This document shows positions 52,429 to 58,097 of a DNA stretch of 64,000 nucleotides, in pieces. Numbering within the stretch: the first letter of the stretch is position 1; each line of letters opens with the position of its first letter. Below the pieces are notes generated by a model. It did no database searches, was not told the origin of the DNA, and saw nothing but the letters and a program-made list of their open reading frames with translations. The DNA is from Bacillota bacterium (GTDB lineage Bacteria > Sysuimicrobiota > Sysuimicrobiia > Sysuimicrobiales > Segetimicrobiaceae): contig JAJPJJ010000014.1 in assembly GCA_021324295.1 (NCBI GenBank), positions 1 to 64,000 of the forward strand, given 5' to 3'. A program made the position numbers and the translations under genes.

Positions 52429-52764
52429 CTACGAACCTCCTTTCGTATCGAACTGCCCTCCGCCGCTACCGCCCAGTCCCAGCGGCTGCATGACGAGCTG
52501 AATCTCGTCGATCGCACGGCACCCCGCCCTCTGGTTGAGCGCCTCGACCAGGGACGCCCGGCGCAGGCCCAGCTCGTAGAGGACCGCCGGGAGGTCGGTC
52601 GCCACCACGAGCGTGCCGCCCCGCACGCCGAGCGGCCTCGCGTGGCGCGCGCGCGCCTCCCCGACTACTTCCGGCCATGCGCTCAGCACGGCCCCCTGGC
52701 GGGCGCGCCGCGGCCCCAGGAGCGCCGCGAGCGCGTCGCCCAGCAGCTCCCTAAGGACGTGCAC
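52429..52764 (-). CDS. DciA-like DUF721 protein
   Basis: Predicted replicative-helicase operator/loader of the DciA (DUF721) family, 111 residues from a GTG at 52764. Core signature: LLGPRRARQGAVLSAWPEVVG near residue 17, then ARHARPLGVRGGTLVVATDLPAVLYELGLR, split around residues 42-72. DciA helps load DnaB in organisms lacking DnaC or DnaI. It overlaps recF by 14 bp. The short length matches the Gram-positive form. Confidence 0.82.
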   Translation of the reverse strand: MHVLRELLGDALAALLGPRRARQGAVLSAWPEVVGEARARHARPLGVRGGTLVVATDLPAVLYELGLRRASLVEALNQRAGCRAIDEIQLVMQPLGLGGSGGGQFDTKGGS

Positions 52765-53833
52765 CCAGGTCCTCGAGCAGGGCGCCGGCACGGATGGAGA
52801 GCACCCGCATCCTGGCGCTTCCCGCCGGCCGGCCGGTATGGGTGAGCAAGACCTGCGGTCCTGCGATCTCGCGCAGCAGCAGCGCCTGCCGGGACGGGTC
52901 GAGGTCGGCCATCACGTCGTCCAGGAGCAGGACCGGCCACTCCCCCAGCTCTTCCCGCAGCAGCTCCGCCTCGGCGAGCCGCAGGCTCAGCGCGGCGGTG
53001 TGCTGCTGGCCGCGCGATCCGAACGCCCGGAGGTCGGCGCCGTTGACGCTGAGACGCAGGTCATCCCGGTGCGGACCGACCAGGCTCGCGCCCCGCCGCA
53101 GCTCCTCCGCCCGCCGCGCCGCGAGCGCCCGTCCGATCGCCTCCCGCTCGCCCCCCTCGCCGGCCGAGCATAGGTACGCGACGTCCATCACCTCGTCGCC
53201 GCCCGAGATCCGCGCATGCCGCTCGCGCGCCGGGCGCGCGAGCGCCTCCACGAACCGCCGCCTCCGCTCGACGAGCGCCGCCCCCAGCTCCACCAGTTGA
53301 TCGTCCCACGGCGCCAGGGCGGGCCCAGGGGCCGCACGCCGCAGGAGGTGGTTGCGCTGGCGGACCACGCGCAGGTAGCGCGTGAGCGTGAAGTAGTACG
53401 AGGGGCTGACCTGGCTCAGCGCCGCGTCCAGGACGCGGCGGCGGGACGCCGGTGCCCCGCGGATGACCTCGTCGTCCGCCGGCCCCGCCAGCACGACGGC
53501 GAGCCTCCCGAGCAGCTGACCCCGCTGCACGGCGACGCCGTTGACCCGCATCCGCTTCTCGCCGCTTGCGCGGTCGATCGCGATCTCGAGCAGCTGCGGC
53601 CGCGCGCCACGTACAGCCGCCCGCACGTAGGCGCGGTCCTGGCCAAACCGCACGACCTCGGCGTCCGCGTTCACGCGCGGGCTTCGGCCGAGTGCGACCG
53701 TGTAGACGCTCTCGAGCAGGTTGCTCTTCCCCTGCGCGTTGGGCCCCTCGATCAGCGTCACACCGTCCCCGAGCGCGACGTCCAAGGTCGCGTAGTTGCG
53801 GAAGTCGCGCAGGCGAAGCTCAGCCAGCCACAA
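52751..53833 (-). CDS. RecF recombination protein
   Basis: SMC-like ATPase of the RecFOR repair pathway, 360 residues. The TTG at 53833 is the likely start (GGGAG seven bases upstream) since the product then opens LWLAELRLRDFRNYATLDVA. Walker A is IEGPNAQGKSNLLES, the signature loop SRGQQHTAALSLRLAE, and Walker B VLLLDDVMADLDPSRQ. It overlaps the S4 gene by 14 bp and dciA by 14 bp. Confidence 0.95.
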   Translation of the reverse strand: MWLAELRLRDFRNYATLDVALGDGVTLIEGPNAQGKSNLLESVYTVALGRSPRVNADAEVVRFGQDRAYVRAAVRGARPQLLEIAIDRASGEKRMRVNGVAVQRGQLLGRLAVVLAGPADDEVIRGAPASRRRVLDAALSQVSPSYYFTLTRYLRVVRQRNHLLRRAAPGPALAPWDDQLVELGAALVERRRRFVEALARPARERHARISGGDEVMDVAYLCSAGEGGEREAIGRALAARRAEELRRGASLVGPHRDDLRLSVNGADLRAFGSRGQQHTAALSLRLAEAELLREELGEWPVLLLDDVMADLDPSRQALLLREIAGPQVLLTHTGRPAGSARMRVLSIRAGALLEDLGARP

Positions 53834-54045: not shown

Positions 54046-55155
54046 CTACCCGTAGACGCGGACCGGCGCGAGGACGTAGACATAGTCCGGGTGCTCCACC
54101 GGACGCAGCGCGCCGGGGCTGAGCGGGCCCGTGAGGTCGAAGAAGACCTCCGCCGCATCGATGTTGCCCAGCGCGTCCATCAGGAACTTCGCGTTGAAGG
54201 CCACCGGCACGGCGTCGCCCTCGACCTCCACGCCGACCTGCTCCTCCGCCGTGCCCACGTCCGGGGTATTCGACGTGATCGTCAGCGTGCCGTCCGACGC
54301 GCTCAGCCGGACGACGTTCGCGGAATCCCGGGCGGTGATGCTGGCCCGGCGCACGGCGCGGAGCAGCCGCTCCGTGCCGACCCGGATCCGCTGCTTGTAC
54401 TCCTTGGGAATGACCTGTTCGTAGTTCGGAAACTGCCCGGCGATCAGGCGGGAGATGAAGCGCATCCCCGGCAGCGCGAACAGCACCTGATTCTCGTGAG
54501 ACGCGATCGTCACCTCCCCCTCCACGCCGCCGAGCGCGCGGACGAGCTCGCTCATCGTCTTCCCGGGGACGATCGCCGTGATCTTGCCCCCCTCGGGGCT
54601 GGGGATCTTGGCCCGCCGCAGCGCCAGCCGGCCCCCGTCGGTGGCGACGAGCTGCCCGGTCTCTCCCTCCAGGACCAGGTACACCCCGGTGAGGAACGGA
54701 CGCGTCTCGTCCGTGGAGACCGCGAAGCTCGTCTGGCGGATCATCGTCCGGAGGAGCCCTGCGTCGAGCCGTACGAGGACGTCGCCGTCTGACGACGGCA
54801 GGACCGGAAAGTCAGCCGCCGGCAACCCGAGGACCTCGAACCTCACCTTCTCGCAGGTGATCGTCGCCCTGGACTCTCCCTCCGGCACGCGTATCTCGAC
54901 GTCCCCTTCCGGCAGGTTGGACACGATATCGGTCAGAATCCGCGCCGGGAGCGTGACTGCGCCGTCCTCAGCGACCGTGGCCTCCACGTAGGACTCGATT
55001 CCAAGCTCCAGGTCCGTCGCGGCGAGTTTTACGCGGTCTTCCGAGGCCTCCAGCAGGACATTGCCCAGGATCGGCATGCTTGCTCGGGGCGAGATCGCCC
55101 GGGCGACGGTTTGAACTCCCCGCAGTAGCTGGTGCTGCACGCAGTGGATGCGCAT
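54046..55155 (-). CDS. DNA polymerase III beta subunit (sliding clamp)
   Basis: Ring-shaped processivity clamp, 369 residues. It begins MRIHCVQHQLLRGVQTVARA with AGGAG upstream, shows three repeats of the clamp fold (ILGNVLLEASEDRVKLAATD, FAVSTDETRPFLTGVYL, VAFNAKFLMDALGNI) and ends with the clamp motif YVLAPVRVYG, where E. coli has YVVMPMRL. It is adjacent to the second origin element, which lies directly upstream. Confidence 0.97.
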   Translation of the reverse strand: MRIHCVQHQLLRGVQTVARAISPRASMPILGNVLLEASEDRVKLAATDLELGIESYVEATVAEDGAVTLPARILTDIVSNLPEGDVEIRVPEGESRATITCEKVRFEVLGLPAADFPVLPSSDGDVLVRLDAGLLRTMIRQTSFAVSTDETRPFLTGVYLVLEGETGQLVATDGGRLALRRAKIPSPEGGKITAIVPGKTMSELVRALGGVEGEVTIASHENQVLFALPGMRFISRLIAGQFPNYEQVIPKEYKQRIRVGTERLLRAVRRASITARDSANVVRLSASDGTLTITSNTPDVGTAEEQVGVEVEGDAVPVAFNAKFLMDALGNIDAAEVFFDLTGPLSPGALRPVEHPDYVYVLAPVRVYG

Positions 55156-55175: not shown

Positions 55176-55274
55176 TTTATACCATAATATTCGTCAAAGC
55201 CGTAGTAGAACCTGTGGATTGTGTGAATATCCCTCCCAGGAGGCTGTCAGGGCCGGCGCCGCGCCTGTGGATAA
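55176..55274. other. dnaA-dnaN origin element: AT-rich DUE and DnaA boxes
   Basis: The 199-bp gap holds an AT-rich patch at 55175-55200 and the DnaA boxes TGTGGATTG (55213-55221), TGTGAATAT (55222-55230) and a perfect TGTGGATAA (55266-55274). AT patch plus boxes resembles a DNA-unwinding element. TGGTATAAA at 55184-55176 (minus) is an extended -10 for dnaN, 21 bp before its ATG. Together with boxes upstream of dnaA this gives a bipartite origin as in Bacillus. Confidence 0.7.
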
Positions 55275-55354: not shown

Positions 55355-56740
55355 CTACCTGTCCCCCTTCACCGGGCGCTCTGTCCGGAAGCTGTCCACA
55401 AGGCTCTTGATGCCGGCGGCGAGGTGGGCGTCCTGCGCGAGCGCGCCTTTGACCCGCTCGCAGGCGTGCATGACGGTCGTGTGGTCGCGGCCCCCGAACT
55501 CCTCGCCGATGCGGGGCAGGGACGCGTCCGTCAGCTCGCGGGCCAGGTACATCGCGACCTGGCGGGGGAAGGCGACCCCCTTGGTTCGCCGCTTGGCCTT
55601 CATCTCGTCGACGCGGATCCCAAAGAACTCCGCCACGGCCCGCTGGATCGCGGCGATCGTGACCGGGCGGATGCGGGCCTGCGGGAGCAGCTCCTTGAGC
55701 ACCTCCACGGTCAGCTCCACCGAGATCGGCGATCGCGTCATCTCCGCGTGAGCGCGCAGGCGGCTGAGCGCCCCCTCCAGCTCTCGGATGTTGGACGAGA
55801 TCCGCTGGGCGATGTACTGCGCCACCTCGTCCGGGAGGGCGATCGCGTCCATCTCGGCCTTCTTGCGCAGGATCGCAATACGCGTCTCGTAGTCCGGCGG
55901 CTGGATGTCGGCGATGAGGCCCCACTCGAACCGCGAGCGTAGGCGGTCCTCGAGCGTGGGGATCTCGCGGGGGGGCTTGTCGCTGCTGATGATGAGCTGG
56001 CGGCTGGACTCGTAGAGCGTGTTGAAGGTGTGGAAGAACTCCTCCTGCGTGCGTTCCTTTCCGGCCAGGAACTGGATGTCGTCGATCAGCAGCACGTCGA
56101 CGTTGCGGTATTTGTTCCGGAACTCGACCATCTTGTCGTCCCGGATCGCGTTGATGAGCTCGTTCGTGAACCGCTCCGACGACACGTAGGTGACCCGGGC
56201 GAGCTGCTTGCGCGTGAGGACGTGGTGGCCGATCGCGTGGAGCAGGTGCGTCTTCCCGAGGCCCACCCCGCCGTAGATGAACAGCGGGTTGTACGAGCGC
56301 CCCGGCGATTCGGCGACGGCGTGGGCCGCGGCGTGGGCGAAGCGGTTTCCGCTGCCCACGATGAACGTGTCGAAGGTGTACCGGCCCGTCAGCCCGGCGG
56401 CCTCGTGCGCGGGGCCCCGCGCGCCGGGCGCGTCCCGGGGCGCGCCGCGGTCGCGGGTCGCGGCTGCCGGGGCCGGTTCGCCGTCCGCCACGACGAAACG
56501 CACGTCGACGCCCCGGGTGAGGACCTCCCGCAGCGTCTCCGCGATGAGGCCGCGATAGCGGCCTTCGAGCCACTCCTTCGCAAAGACGCTCGGGACGGAG
56601 AACACGAACACGTCGCCCTCGAGCGTGAGGGGGCGCATCGCCTTCAGGAACGCCTCGAAGCTGGGCTTGCTGAGTTGGCTCTCGATCCGGGTGAGCGCCT
56701 CATGCCAGACCTGGCCGGGAGCCGCACTCTGTGGATCCAT
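55355..56740 (-). CDS. Chromosomal replication initiator DnaA
   Basis: AAA+ initiator protein, 461 residues. The start at 56740 follows GGAGG by eight bases and the product opens MDPQSAAPGQVWHEALTRIE. Domain I (1-80) is followed by a Pro/Ala-rich linker, then the AAA+ domain: FIYGGVGLGKTHLLHAIG (Walker A), VDVLLIDDIQFLAGKERTQ (Walker B), and SRFEWGLIADIQPPDYETR. Domain IV has LARELTDASLPRIGEEFGGR and DHTTVMHACERVK, the DnaA-box-binding motif. It is flanked by DnaA boxes on both sides. Confidence 0.98.
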   Translation of the reverse strand: MDPQSAAPGQVWHEALTRIESQLSKPSFEAFLKAMRPLTLEGDVFVFSVPSVFAKEWLEGRYRGLIAETLREVLTRGVDVRFVVADGEPAPAAATRDRGAPRDAPGARGPAHEAAGLTGRYTFDTFIVGSGNRFAHAAAHAVAESPGRSYNPLFIYGGVGLGKTHLLHAIGHHVLTRKQLARVTYVSSERFTNELINAIRDDKMVEFRNKYRNVDVLLIDDIQFLAGKERTQEEFFHTFNTLYESSRQLIISSDKPPREIPTLEDRLRSRFEWGLIADIQPPDYETRIAILRKKAEMDAIALPDEVAQYIAQRISSNIRELEGALSRLRAHAEMTRSPISVELTVEVLKELLPQARIRPVTIAAIQRAVAEFFGIRVDEMKAKRRTKGVAFPRQVAMYLARELTDASLPRIGEEFGGRDHTTVMHACERVKGALAQDAHLAAGIKSLVDSFRTERPVKGDR

Positions 56741-56782
56741 CGGGGCATCCTCCACGTCGGCCCGCCGCGTCGCGGCGGGGCA

Positions 56783-57589
56783 TCAGGGCTTGAACACGCT
56801 GTCCATGTACGCGATGCCCTCCTCGGTCAGGGTGCGCTTGCCCGGCCCGCGCGGGGCGAGCAGATGCATCCGCTGGAGGGCCGCGAGTTCCCGAAACGCG
56901 GTGCTCTGGCTGATGCCGAGCTCCTTCGCGATCGTCGACGGGCCGGCCGACCCGAGCTCGGCGATCAGCAGCAGAACCTTGCGCTGGCGCTCGGTCAGGC
57001 GCGCCCGGGCGGCTGCCGCATCGGGCTCGGGCTCGGCGCGGGGGGACGGCGGGGCGGCGGGAGCGACCGGCGGCCTGGTCGGGCCGACGTGCAGCGTGAC
57101 GACGGTCCCGCGCTCGAGGTTGTCCTCGATCGAGATCGCCCCGCCGAGGAACGCCAGTTGCTCCCGGGCGACCGGCAGGCCCGAGCCGACGCCCTTGATG
57201 AACCGCCGCATCTCTCGGGTGGCGGTCGTGAAGCCTGGGAGGAACGCACGTTCCTTGTCGCGGATGCCCGGGCCCTGATCCGAGATGCGGATCGTGTTGC
57301 CGTCGTCCATGATCGTGATGACGGCGTCCTGGAAGTATGCGTGGATCAGGTTCTCCACGATCTCCTTGATCACGACGAAGGGAATACGCCCGCCGCGCTC
57401 CCGGGCGTAGCCGTGCGTGCGCGCCGCCAGCTCCCCAACGAGCTGATCGAAGTCTTCCGAGGACAGCGACACCACCTGGGGCGGCGCGAGCGGCGAATCG
57501 TAGACGGCCATGCGTACTTCGGGCGCCCTCGGCGACTCCTCCGGCTCACCCTGGCGTTGGGAGGCGAGCCGCGCGAAGAAGTCCTGCAT
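56783..57589 (-). CDS. GHKL-ATPase/winged-helix fusion protein next to dnaA
   Basis: Two-domain protein of 268 residues, ATG at 57589 behind AGGGGGA. The first domain is a histidine-kinase-like ATPase: N-box VIKEIVENLIHAYFQD (Asn80, His83), G1 box DQGPGI (104-109) and G2 box GVGSGLPVAREQL (133-145); there is no phosphoacceptor H-box or membrane segment. A Pro/Ala-rich linker (170-197) joins a winged helix (198-268) with LTERQRKVLLLIAELGSAG and AKELGISQSTAFRELAAL. It may bind ATP and DNA. Position 42 bp upstream of dnaA and next to the main origin suggests replication or growth-linked regulation; function is unknown. Confidence 0.8.
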   Translation of the reverse strand: MQDFFARLASQRQGEPEESPRAPEVRMAVYDSPLAPPQVVSLSSEDFDQLVGELAARTHGYARERGGRIPFVVIKEIVENLIHAYFQDAVITIMDDGNTIRISDQGPGIRDKERAFLPGFTTATREMRRFIKGVGSGLPVAREQLAFLGGAISIEDNLERGTVVTLHVGPTRPPVAPAAPPSPRAEPEPDAAAARARLTERQRKVLLLIAELGSAGPSTIAKELGISQSTAFRELAALQRMHLLAPRGPGKRTLTEEGIAYMDSVFKP

Positions 57590-58097
57590 TATGGGATCCC
57601 CCTGCACGCGTCCATCGTAATTGGCCGCACCTCTGGGCCCTCCTTCCATTCCACCTGCCGCGCGTGGACTTCTTTCGCGTGCCGTTGACGTGCCGGCGGG
57701 CAACCACCCGCGAGGGAAAGGGGCCAGCGGGTGGTGCGGTCATCGCGCGTCCGGGCCCGCACAAAACGTCGCCCGCGCCGCCGCGGCCTGCATCGAGGGC
57801 GGGCGCCAGGTTATCCACAGCTGTGGAAAAGATTGTGGATAACCTCGAACGACTCCTGCCATATCTCGCCACGAACCCGCAGGGGACCGCGACTCCGAGG
57901 ACGGCAGGTACGCGCGCCAGCCCCGGCACGGCCGAAAATGTGGATAAGCAGGCACGGTATCTTCAGGTTGTCCACAGATCGCTGGAACGCTTGGAGGCCG
58001 GCACGGGAATCGGCCGAGCCCGCGCCCCGAGGAGCCCTGCGAGGCGAGGCTCCGCCCATGGTGCCCGTGGCGTCGAGCCGCGCGGTTCGGGCCCGCG
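57590..58097. other. Main origin region (oriC) upstream of dnaA
   Basis: Five DnaA boxes lie here: TTATCCACA (57811-57819), TGTGGAAAA (57822-57830), TGTGGATAA (57834-57842 and 57939-57947) and TTGTCCACA (57968-57976, one mismatch). GGTTATCCACA (57809-57819) and TGTGGATAACC (57834-57844) form a perfect 11-bp inverted repeat. No gene is recognised. The location between rpmH and dnaA is the usual site of oriC. Confidence 0.85.

Follow-up and report, generated by a model that had tools for sequence, protein, structure and literature searches.

A GHKL-ATPase/winged-helix gene kept between oriC and dnaA in several phyla, probably an overlooked partner or regulator of chromosome replication

Background

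Why should a gene for a kinase-like ATPase fused to a DNA-binding domain stand between the origin of replication and dnaA? Detailed knowledge of how DnaA is regulated is limited to a few model bacteria, each of which uses different proteins. The gene considered here lies in a stretch of 64,000 nucleotides from a genome of the Sysuimicrobiota (the window). In the original prediction, which was made from the letters of this stretch, its product was proposed to sense the ATP state and to act on dnaA or the origin.

Protein architecture

The gene occupies positions 56783 to 57589 on the minus strand, stop codon included, and its open reading frame of 268 amino acids begins with an ATG at 57589. 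This start codon is supported by the residues MQDFF, which are kept in close relatives, and several of these carry stop codons just upstream of the same start. In the protein a short N-terminal helix is followed by a GHKL ATPase domain, a flexible linker and a winged helix. The GHKL domain, together with its N-terminal strand pair and helix, was assigned to residues 24-169 (57083 to 57520, minus strand) on the basis of Pfam, invariant columns, the AlphaFold2 model and Foldseek. Its Pfam HATPase_c match covers residues 73-168 (1.8e-12, 48.1 bits against a cut-off of 26.4). The N box (E76xxxN80), the G1 box (D104xG106xG108) and the G2 box (G133xGxG137) show no variation among the 51 homologues compared, which come from several phyla; the invariant positions of the ATPase domain in this set include E76, E79, N80, H83, G97, D104, G106, P107 and G108 as well as G133-P139, G150, N157 and G161.

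In GyrB, MutL and SpoIIAB a Glu precedes the Asn of the N box by four residues. As E76 takes this position relative to N80, hydrolysis or phosphotransfer is chemically possible, and E76 is, by analogy, the likely general base of the N box. H83, inside the N box, is the sole invariant His; no His outside this box is conserved in the 51 homologues, and a phosphoacceptor helix is therefore missing. Pfam likewise yielded no His kinase A match in the approximately 70 residues that precede H83 and the N box.

The winged-helix domain (residues 198-265; 56795 to 56998, minus strand) was delimited by Pfam, conserved columns and the structural model, with a putative recognition-helix region from S227 to L238. 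HTH_IclR reached 23.1 bits in this region (cut-off 22) and MarR 23.3 bits (cut-off 24.6). Invariant positions among the 51 homologues include G216, P217, L224, R233, L238, G250, R252 and G258, and S229, T230 and A231 are nearly invariant.

The AlphaFold2 model, built on the alignment of the 51 sequences (pLDDT 85), shows a helix at residues 2-12, strands at 24-29 and 38-43, the GHKL fold, a disordered linker at approximately 170-195 and a winged helix of the order H-H-H-beta-beta with a pLDDT of about 95. The pTM is only 0.59, so that the placement of the domains relative to each other is unreliable. In six Actinomycetota genomes that look like host-associated Coriobacteriia, the homologue has a P/Q-rich interdomain linker of up to approximately 200 residues and stands before a divergent DnaA.

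From the conserved columns and the profile matches, the predicted architecture, the intact ATP boxes and the conserved winged helix can be regarded as demonstrated. The original prediction had given the exact coordinates of the reading frame and had described a fusion of a GHKL ATPase to a winged helix; the latter agrees with the HATPase_c match and with an HTH_IclR score above its cut-off. Its further claim of intact N, G1 and G2 boxes without a phosphoacceptor is upheld by the invariant columns. The winged helix itself was correctly recognized, but its proposed likeness to MarR/ArsR is not specific: IclR, TrmB and HVO_A0261-type domains are equally close.

Neighbourhood of the origin

Downstream, dnaA extends from 55355 to 56740 on the minus strand (TIGR00362, 572.6 bits), its start being taken as the ATG at 56740 with a GGAGG 8 nt upstream. 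The GHKL gene ends 42 bp before this ATG and 27 bp before a longer alternative start, a GTG at 56755. The next gene of the cluster is dnaN (54046 to 55155, minus strand; TIGR00663, 316.9 bits). On the other side, a cluster of DnaA boxes at 57811 to 57976, assigned to oriC, begins 222 bp behind the start codon of the GHKL gene. It holds five boxes, three of which are perfect copies of TTATCCACA, and its spacing is conserved in the phylum; these five are among nine boxes with at most one mismatch in the window. The cumulative GC-skew minimum of the window lies at about 56 kb. The predicted placement between oriC and dnaA is thus correct.

The gap between the GHKL gene and dnaA contains neither a promoter-like site on that strand nor a terminator-like site, which, given its shortness, fits co-transcription with dnaA, although the sigma-70 scan behind it carries little weight in a genome of 70% G+C. 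A perfect G+C-rich hairpin, CCCGCCGCG-A-CGCGGCGGG, is located at 56745 to 56780, between the stop codon of the GHKL gene and the ribosome-binding site of dnaA. It is strong in the window, but its form is not conserved in relatives.

Upstream, a candidate promoter or operator block, CGGCACGTCAACGGCA, was found at 57680 to 57695 on the minus strand, 105 bp before the start codon. The block CGGCACGTCARCGGCA recurs at -105 or -106 from the start codon in 7 out of 12 family members. In the genome the exact block occurs once, at its own locus, and near matches are as frequent as those of the reversed control. It could equally be an operator or a core promoter element. No operator common to the phyla was found by k-mer enrichment in the region between rpmH and the GHKL gene with DnaA boxes masked. 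The enriched k-mers were mainly the coding start of rpmH, its likely -10 (TATAGCA) and -35 boxes, and lineage-specific words, none of them at a position shared across phyla. Rfam revealed no known RNA element near the gene. In the upstream regions of several Coriobacteriia, CCTTGAAAA recurs at approximately -470 from the GHKL start, near AGAATCGGCG at approximately -515; these words are possibly part of the origin or of the rpmH promoter in this group.

Occurrence in other genomes

Within the Sysuimicrobiota the gene was present in 38 of the 43 genomes examined, including all 28 of high quality (completeness of 90% or more, contamination of 5% or less); completeness among the five lacking it is 69-86%. 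Each genome has one copy. In 30 out of 30 phylum loci that were read, dnaA follows directly downstream on the same strand, and seven further loci of the phylum agree; rnpA or yidC, in opposite direction, borders the other side. Among the relatives are genomes labelled Armatimonadetes bacterium CSP1-3, a group that now bears the name Sysuimicrobiota.

Outside the phylum, one genome per species was scanned and the best 80 of 356 stretches encoding relatives were compared. They represent Actinomycetota, Coriobacteriia, Thermoleophilia, Candidatus Aquicultor, Bacillota and UBP13, mostly as metagenome-assembled genomes. In 79 of these 80 loci dnaA is the next gene on the same strand, and the remaining locus is cut by the contig end. 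Profile matches were obtained in 142 out of 347 evenly drawn genomes of Actinomycetota, in deep-branching lineages, and in 26 out of 250 sampled genomes of Bacillota, hence in a minority of the latter; in the loci read from both groups dnaA is again next, with exceptions only at contig ends. A sample of about 100 genomes from other parts of the domain contributed one more true match, also beside dnaA. In seven complete or near-complete chromosomes the record ends with this gene and begins with dnaA; the two are therefore neighbours on the circular chromosome. In some Coriobacteriia the gap to dnaA appears to be 0.6-1.7 kb, which is explained by the long P/Q-rich linker in the protein and by unaligned N-termini of DnaA. 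The family includes cultured Coriobacteriia such as Cryptobacterium curtum, whose type-strain genome is published (PMC3035227).

Essentially all strong and readable matches are situated between rnpA/rpmH/oriC and dnaA, on the strand of dnaA. Linkage of the gene to dnaA is hence established, and so are its single copy and its fixed position between oriC and dnaA across the phyla compared. Conservation beside dnaA in other genomes had been suggested as a check of the original prediction, with random placement in relatives as the finding that would speak against it. The high-quality genomes of the phylum and the loci of several other phyla confirm the former, and the counts of 79 out of 80 and 30 out of 30 loci contradict the latter by a wide margin.

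In 54 loci with all four genes readable, the identity of homologues in other phyla to the window protein averages 0.49, and the corresponding values are 0.49 for DnaA and 0.36 for both DnaN and RecF. An identity equal to that of DnaA across phyla indicates strong purifying selection, and the data fit a gene that was inherited vertically for long under strong constraint and is neither mobile nor in decay. Its pairwise distances and those of DnaA, DnaN and RecF are correlated (0.84-0.91). Such values are expected for any co-inherited core genes and by themselves do not show an interaction.

Two candidates from these searches were discarded. An apparent fusion of the GHKL protein to DnaA in Thermoleophilia (proteins of 755 and 763 aa) proved to be two genes separated by a stop codon. 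A weak partial match (E 2.9e-13) has no dnaA nearby and was taken as an unrelated kinase-like ATPase.

Relation to known families

No model in Pfam or NCBIfam describes the whole protein; the matches are to the generic HATPase_c and to assorted winged helices. Likewise, no gene of this kind beside dnaA was mentioned in the literature searched, which covers few subscription journals. Within this scope the expectation that the system is undescribed is supported. GHKL and winged-helix regulators as such are already known, but the dnaA-linked family is uncharacterized.

With the CA domains of sensor histidine kinases and of CheA the protein shares the HATPase_c fold, the N, G1, F and G2 boxes, a PGF[ST]T lid and a GTxVTL end. 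In contrast to these kinases, it lacks a DHp or Hpt domain and a phosphoacceptor His as well as a sensor and a membrane segment, and no response regulator is encoded alongside: the conserved neighbours are yidC, rnpA, rpmH, dnaA, dnaN and recF. The absence of a conserved His outside the N box excludes an ordinary sensor kinase, and the lack of DHp/Hpt and of a cognate response regulator also rules out membership of this family. Membership of the MutL/GyrB-type GHKL ATPases is rejected as well: TIGR00585 reached 18.8 bits against a cut-off of 180 and matched the N-box region only, and no transducer domain was detected.

The GHKL domain of the NifL type is an adenylate-sensing, non-kinase domain. 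The NifL model TIGR02938 matches the GHKL region in 47 of the 51 homologues, although the window protein scores 24.4 against a cut-off of 242. The analogy is functional, in that a GHKL domain is used to sense ADP/ATP; unlike NifL, the window protein has no PAS domains and is not accompanied by NifA.

Over the whole model, the best Foldseek match is DIP2311 of Corynebacterium diphtheriae (PDB 3lmm; approximately 280 columns, E 1.3e-6), in which a GHKL-like domain is also followed by a winged helix. The match is poor (TM-score 0.44-0.46 of the query, rmsd 12-13, identity 13-14%). DIP2311 differs in its length of approximately 555 residues and in an additional N-terminal domain, and a link to dnaA is not known. 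It presumably belongs to the AlbA_2/HATPase_c_4/winged-helix group; neither AlbA_2 nor HATPase_c_4 matched the window protein at E <= 1 or appeared among the families listed for the 51 homologues. The known regulators of DnaA, namely Hda, YabA, SirA, Soj and DiaA/HobA, resemble the protein only in the proposed role, that is in acting on DnaA activity or amount. To our knowledge they have other folds and gene positions, and none of them is a GHKL/winged-helix protein.

Discussion

The same spot is occupied in nearly all relatives from at least three phyla, and the protein is therefore probably a long-standing partner or regulator of chromosome replication that has been overlooked. For its mode of action we favour, with a probability of about 0.45, an ATP-responsive DNA-binding regulator that is co-expressed with DnaA and acts on the dnaA promoter/oriC region. 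The GHKL gene would then open the dnaA operon, within an arrangement of oriC, GHKL/winged-helix gene, dnaA and dnaN that is old and has been kept by vertical descent. From the conserved motifs we infer that ATP is bound through the GHKL domain and that the target is DNA contacted by the winged helix. The nucleotide state would alter the shape or dimerization of the protein, and this in turn would change the binding of the winged helix to DNA of oriC or the dnaA promoter, so that DnaA supply, or origin activity, would follow the adenylate charge. The protein would work like an adenylate-sensing one-component regulator, made together with DnaA as a feedback element. The block at -105, whose exact sequence is unique in the genome and whose position is fixed within the family, would fit a local operator.

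The lack of an operator common to the phyla, despite the conserved recognition helix, speaks to some degree against the transcriptional reading, and direct contact with DnaA becomes its main rival. The protein would in that case bind DnaA itself, as an initiation factor or as a brake, and would not act on dnaA transcription; an N-terminal aromatic helix on a flexible tether would perhaps contact DnaA, the winged helix would touch the origin, and the ATPase cycle would gate the contact. We consider this doubtful, but it accounts for several features. The N-terminal helix MQDFFARLASQRQ (residues 1-13; 57551 to 57589, minus strand) is an aromatic/amphipathic motif that is kept in many lineages and across phyla, even though the linker behind it varies greatly in length, and the model shows low confidence directly after this helix. 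With a permissive pattern of the type M-x-x-[FY]-hydrophobic, the motif was counted in 85 out of 127 distinct homologues compared with 20 in a composition control; examples are MQDFFLRL, MESFLDRL, MKSFFDG, MKNFLEKI and DFYPFV. Co-inheritance and a conservation equal to that of DnaA would also suit a direct partner. On the other hand, the motif is degenerate, as in MSLRELL..., LFSRLFRK and DFYPFV, about one third of the homologues have no clear copy or none at all, and a real fusion to DnaA, as opposed to one read through a stop codon, was not found.

Gene adjacency near oriC is exceptionally stable in bacteria, so that location alone does not prove a function. The protein might thus be a regulator with its main targets elsewhere in the genome, standing beside dnaA only because gene order around oriC rarely breaks; rnpA, rpmH, yidC, dnaN and recF hold the same order in the same loci, and winged helices are generic. 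This explanation is unlikely, since the adjacency is kept even where the protein is much altered by the long P/Q-rich linker and DnaA is divergent, the gene is single-copy, and none of the loci read held a strong match away from dnaA.

Least likely is a partner switch of the SpoIIAB/RsbW type, in which a Ser kinase or anti-factor would phosphorylate or sequester DnaA or another regulator and the winged helix would serve as docking module or locator: SpoIIAB and RsbW are also small soluble GHKL proteins in which a Glu, the likely general base, stands four residues ahead of the Asn in the N box, and weak matches to SpoIIAB structures and, in 33 of the 51 homologues, to anti-sigma F TIGR01925 were found, but the window protein carries a winged helix, its 24.5 bits against a TIGR01925 cut-off of 135 rule out SpoIIAB membership, no STAS antagonist, phosphatase or sigma gene is present in the conserved neighbourhood, and the structures that matched best are those of histidine kinases and of DIP2311, not of SpoIIAB.

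Returning to the ATP-responsive regulator, we tentatively suggest a wider reading, which we hold to be possible but somewhat short of even odds: the protein may be an ancient one, dedicated to the control of initiation. It would have kept its place beside dnaA from a time before Sysuimicrobiota, deep Actinomycetota and some Bacillota diverged, would couple DnaA or the origin to cellular ATP via its GHKL domain, and would have been lost in model Gram-positives. A gene conserved like dnaA and locked upstream of it in several phyla is a candidate link of replication to the energy state. If true, such a link by this family has so far gone unrecognized, and with one gene and one adjacent origin it presents a directly testable target.

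Further features of the replication region were observed in the window. A perfect DnaA box is located at 55266 in the intergenic region between dnaA and dnaN. A DciA gene (PF05258) follows recF at 52432 to 52791, so that DciA is probably the loader of the replicative helicase in this lineage. The DnaA-box array at oriC is strongly phased, successive boxes being 29, 105, 12 and 11 bp apart in many members of the phylum. This spacing represents a conserved oriC architecture and could help to locate origins in genomes of the phylum.
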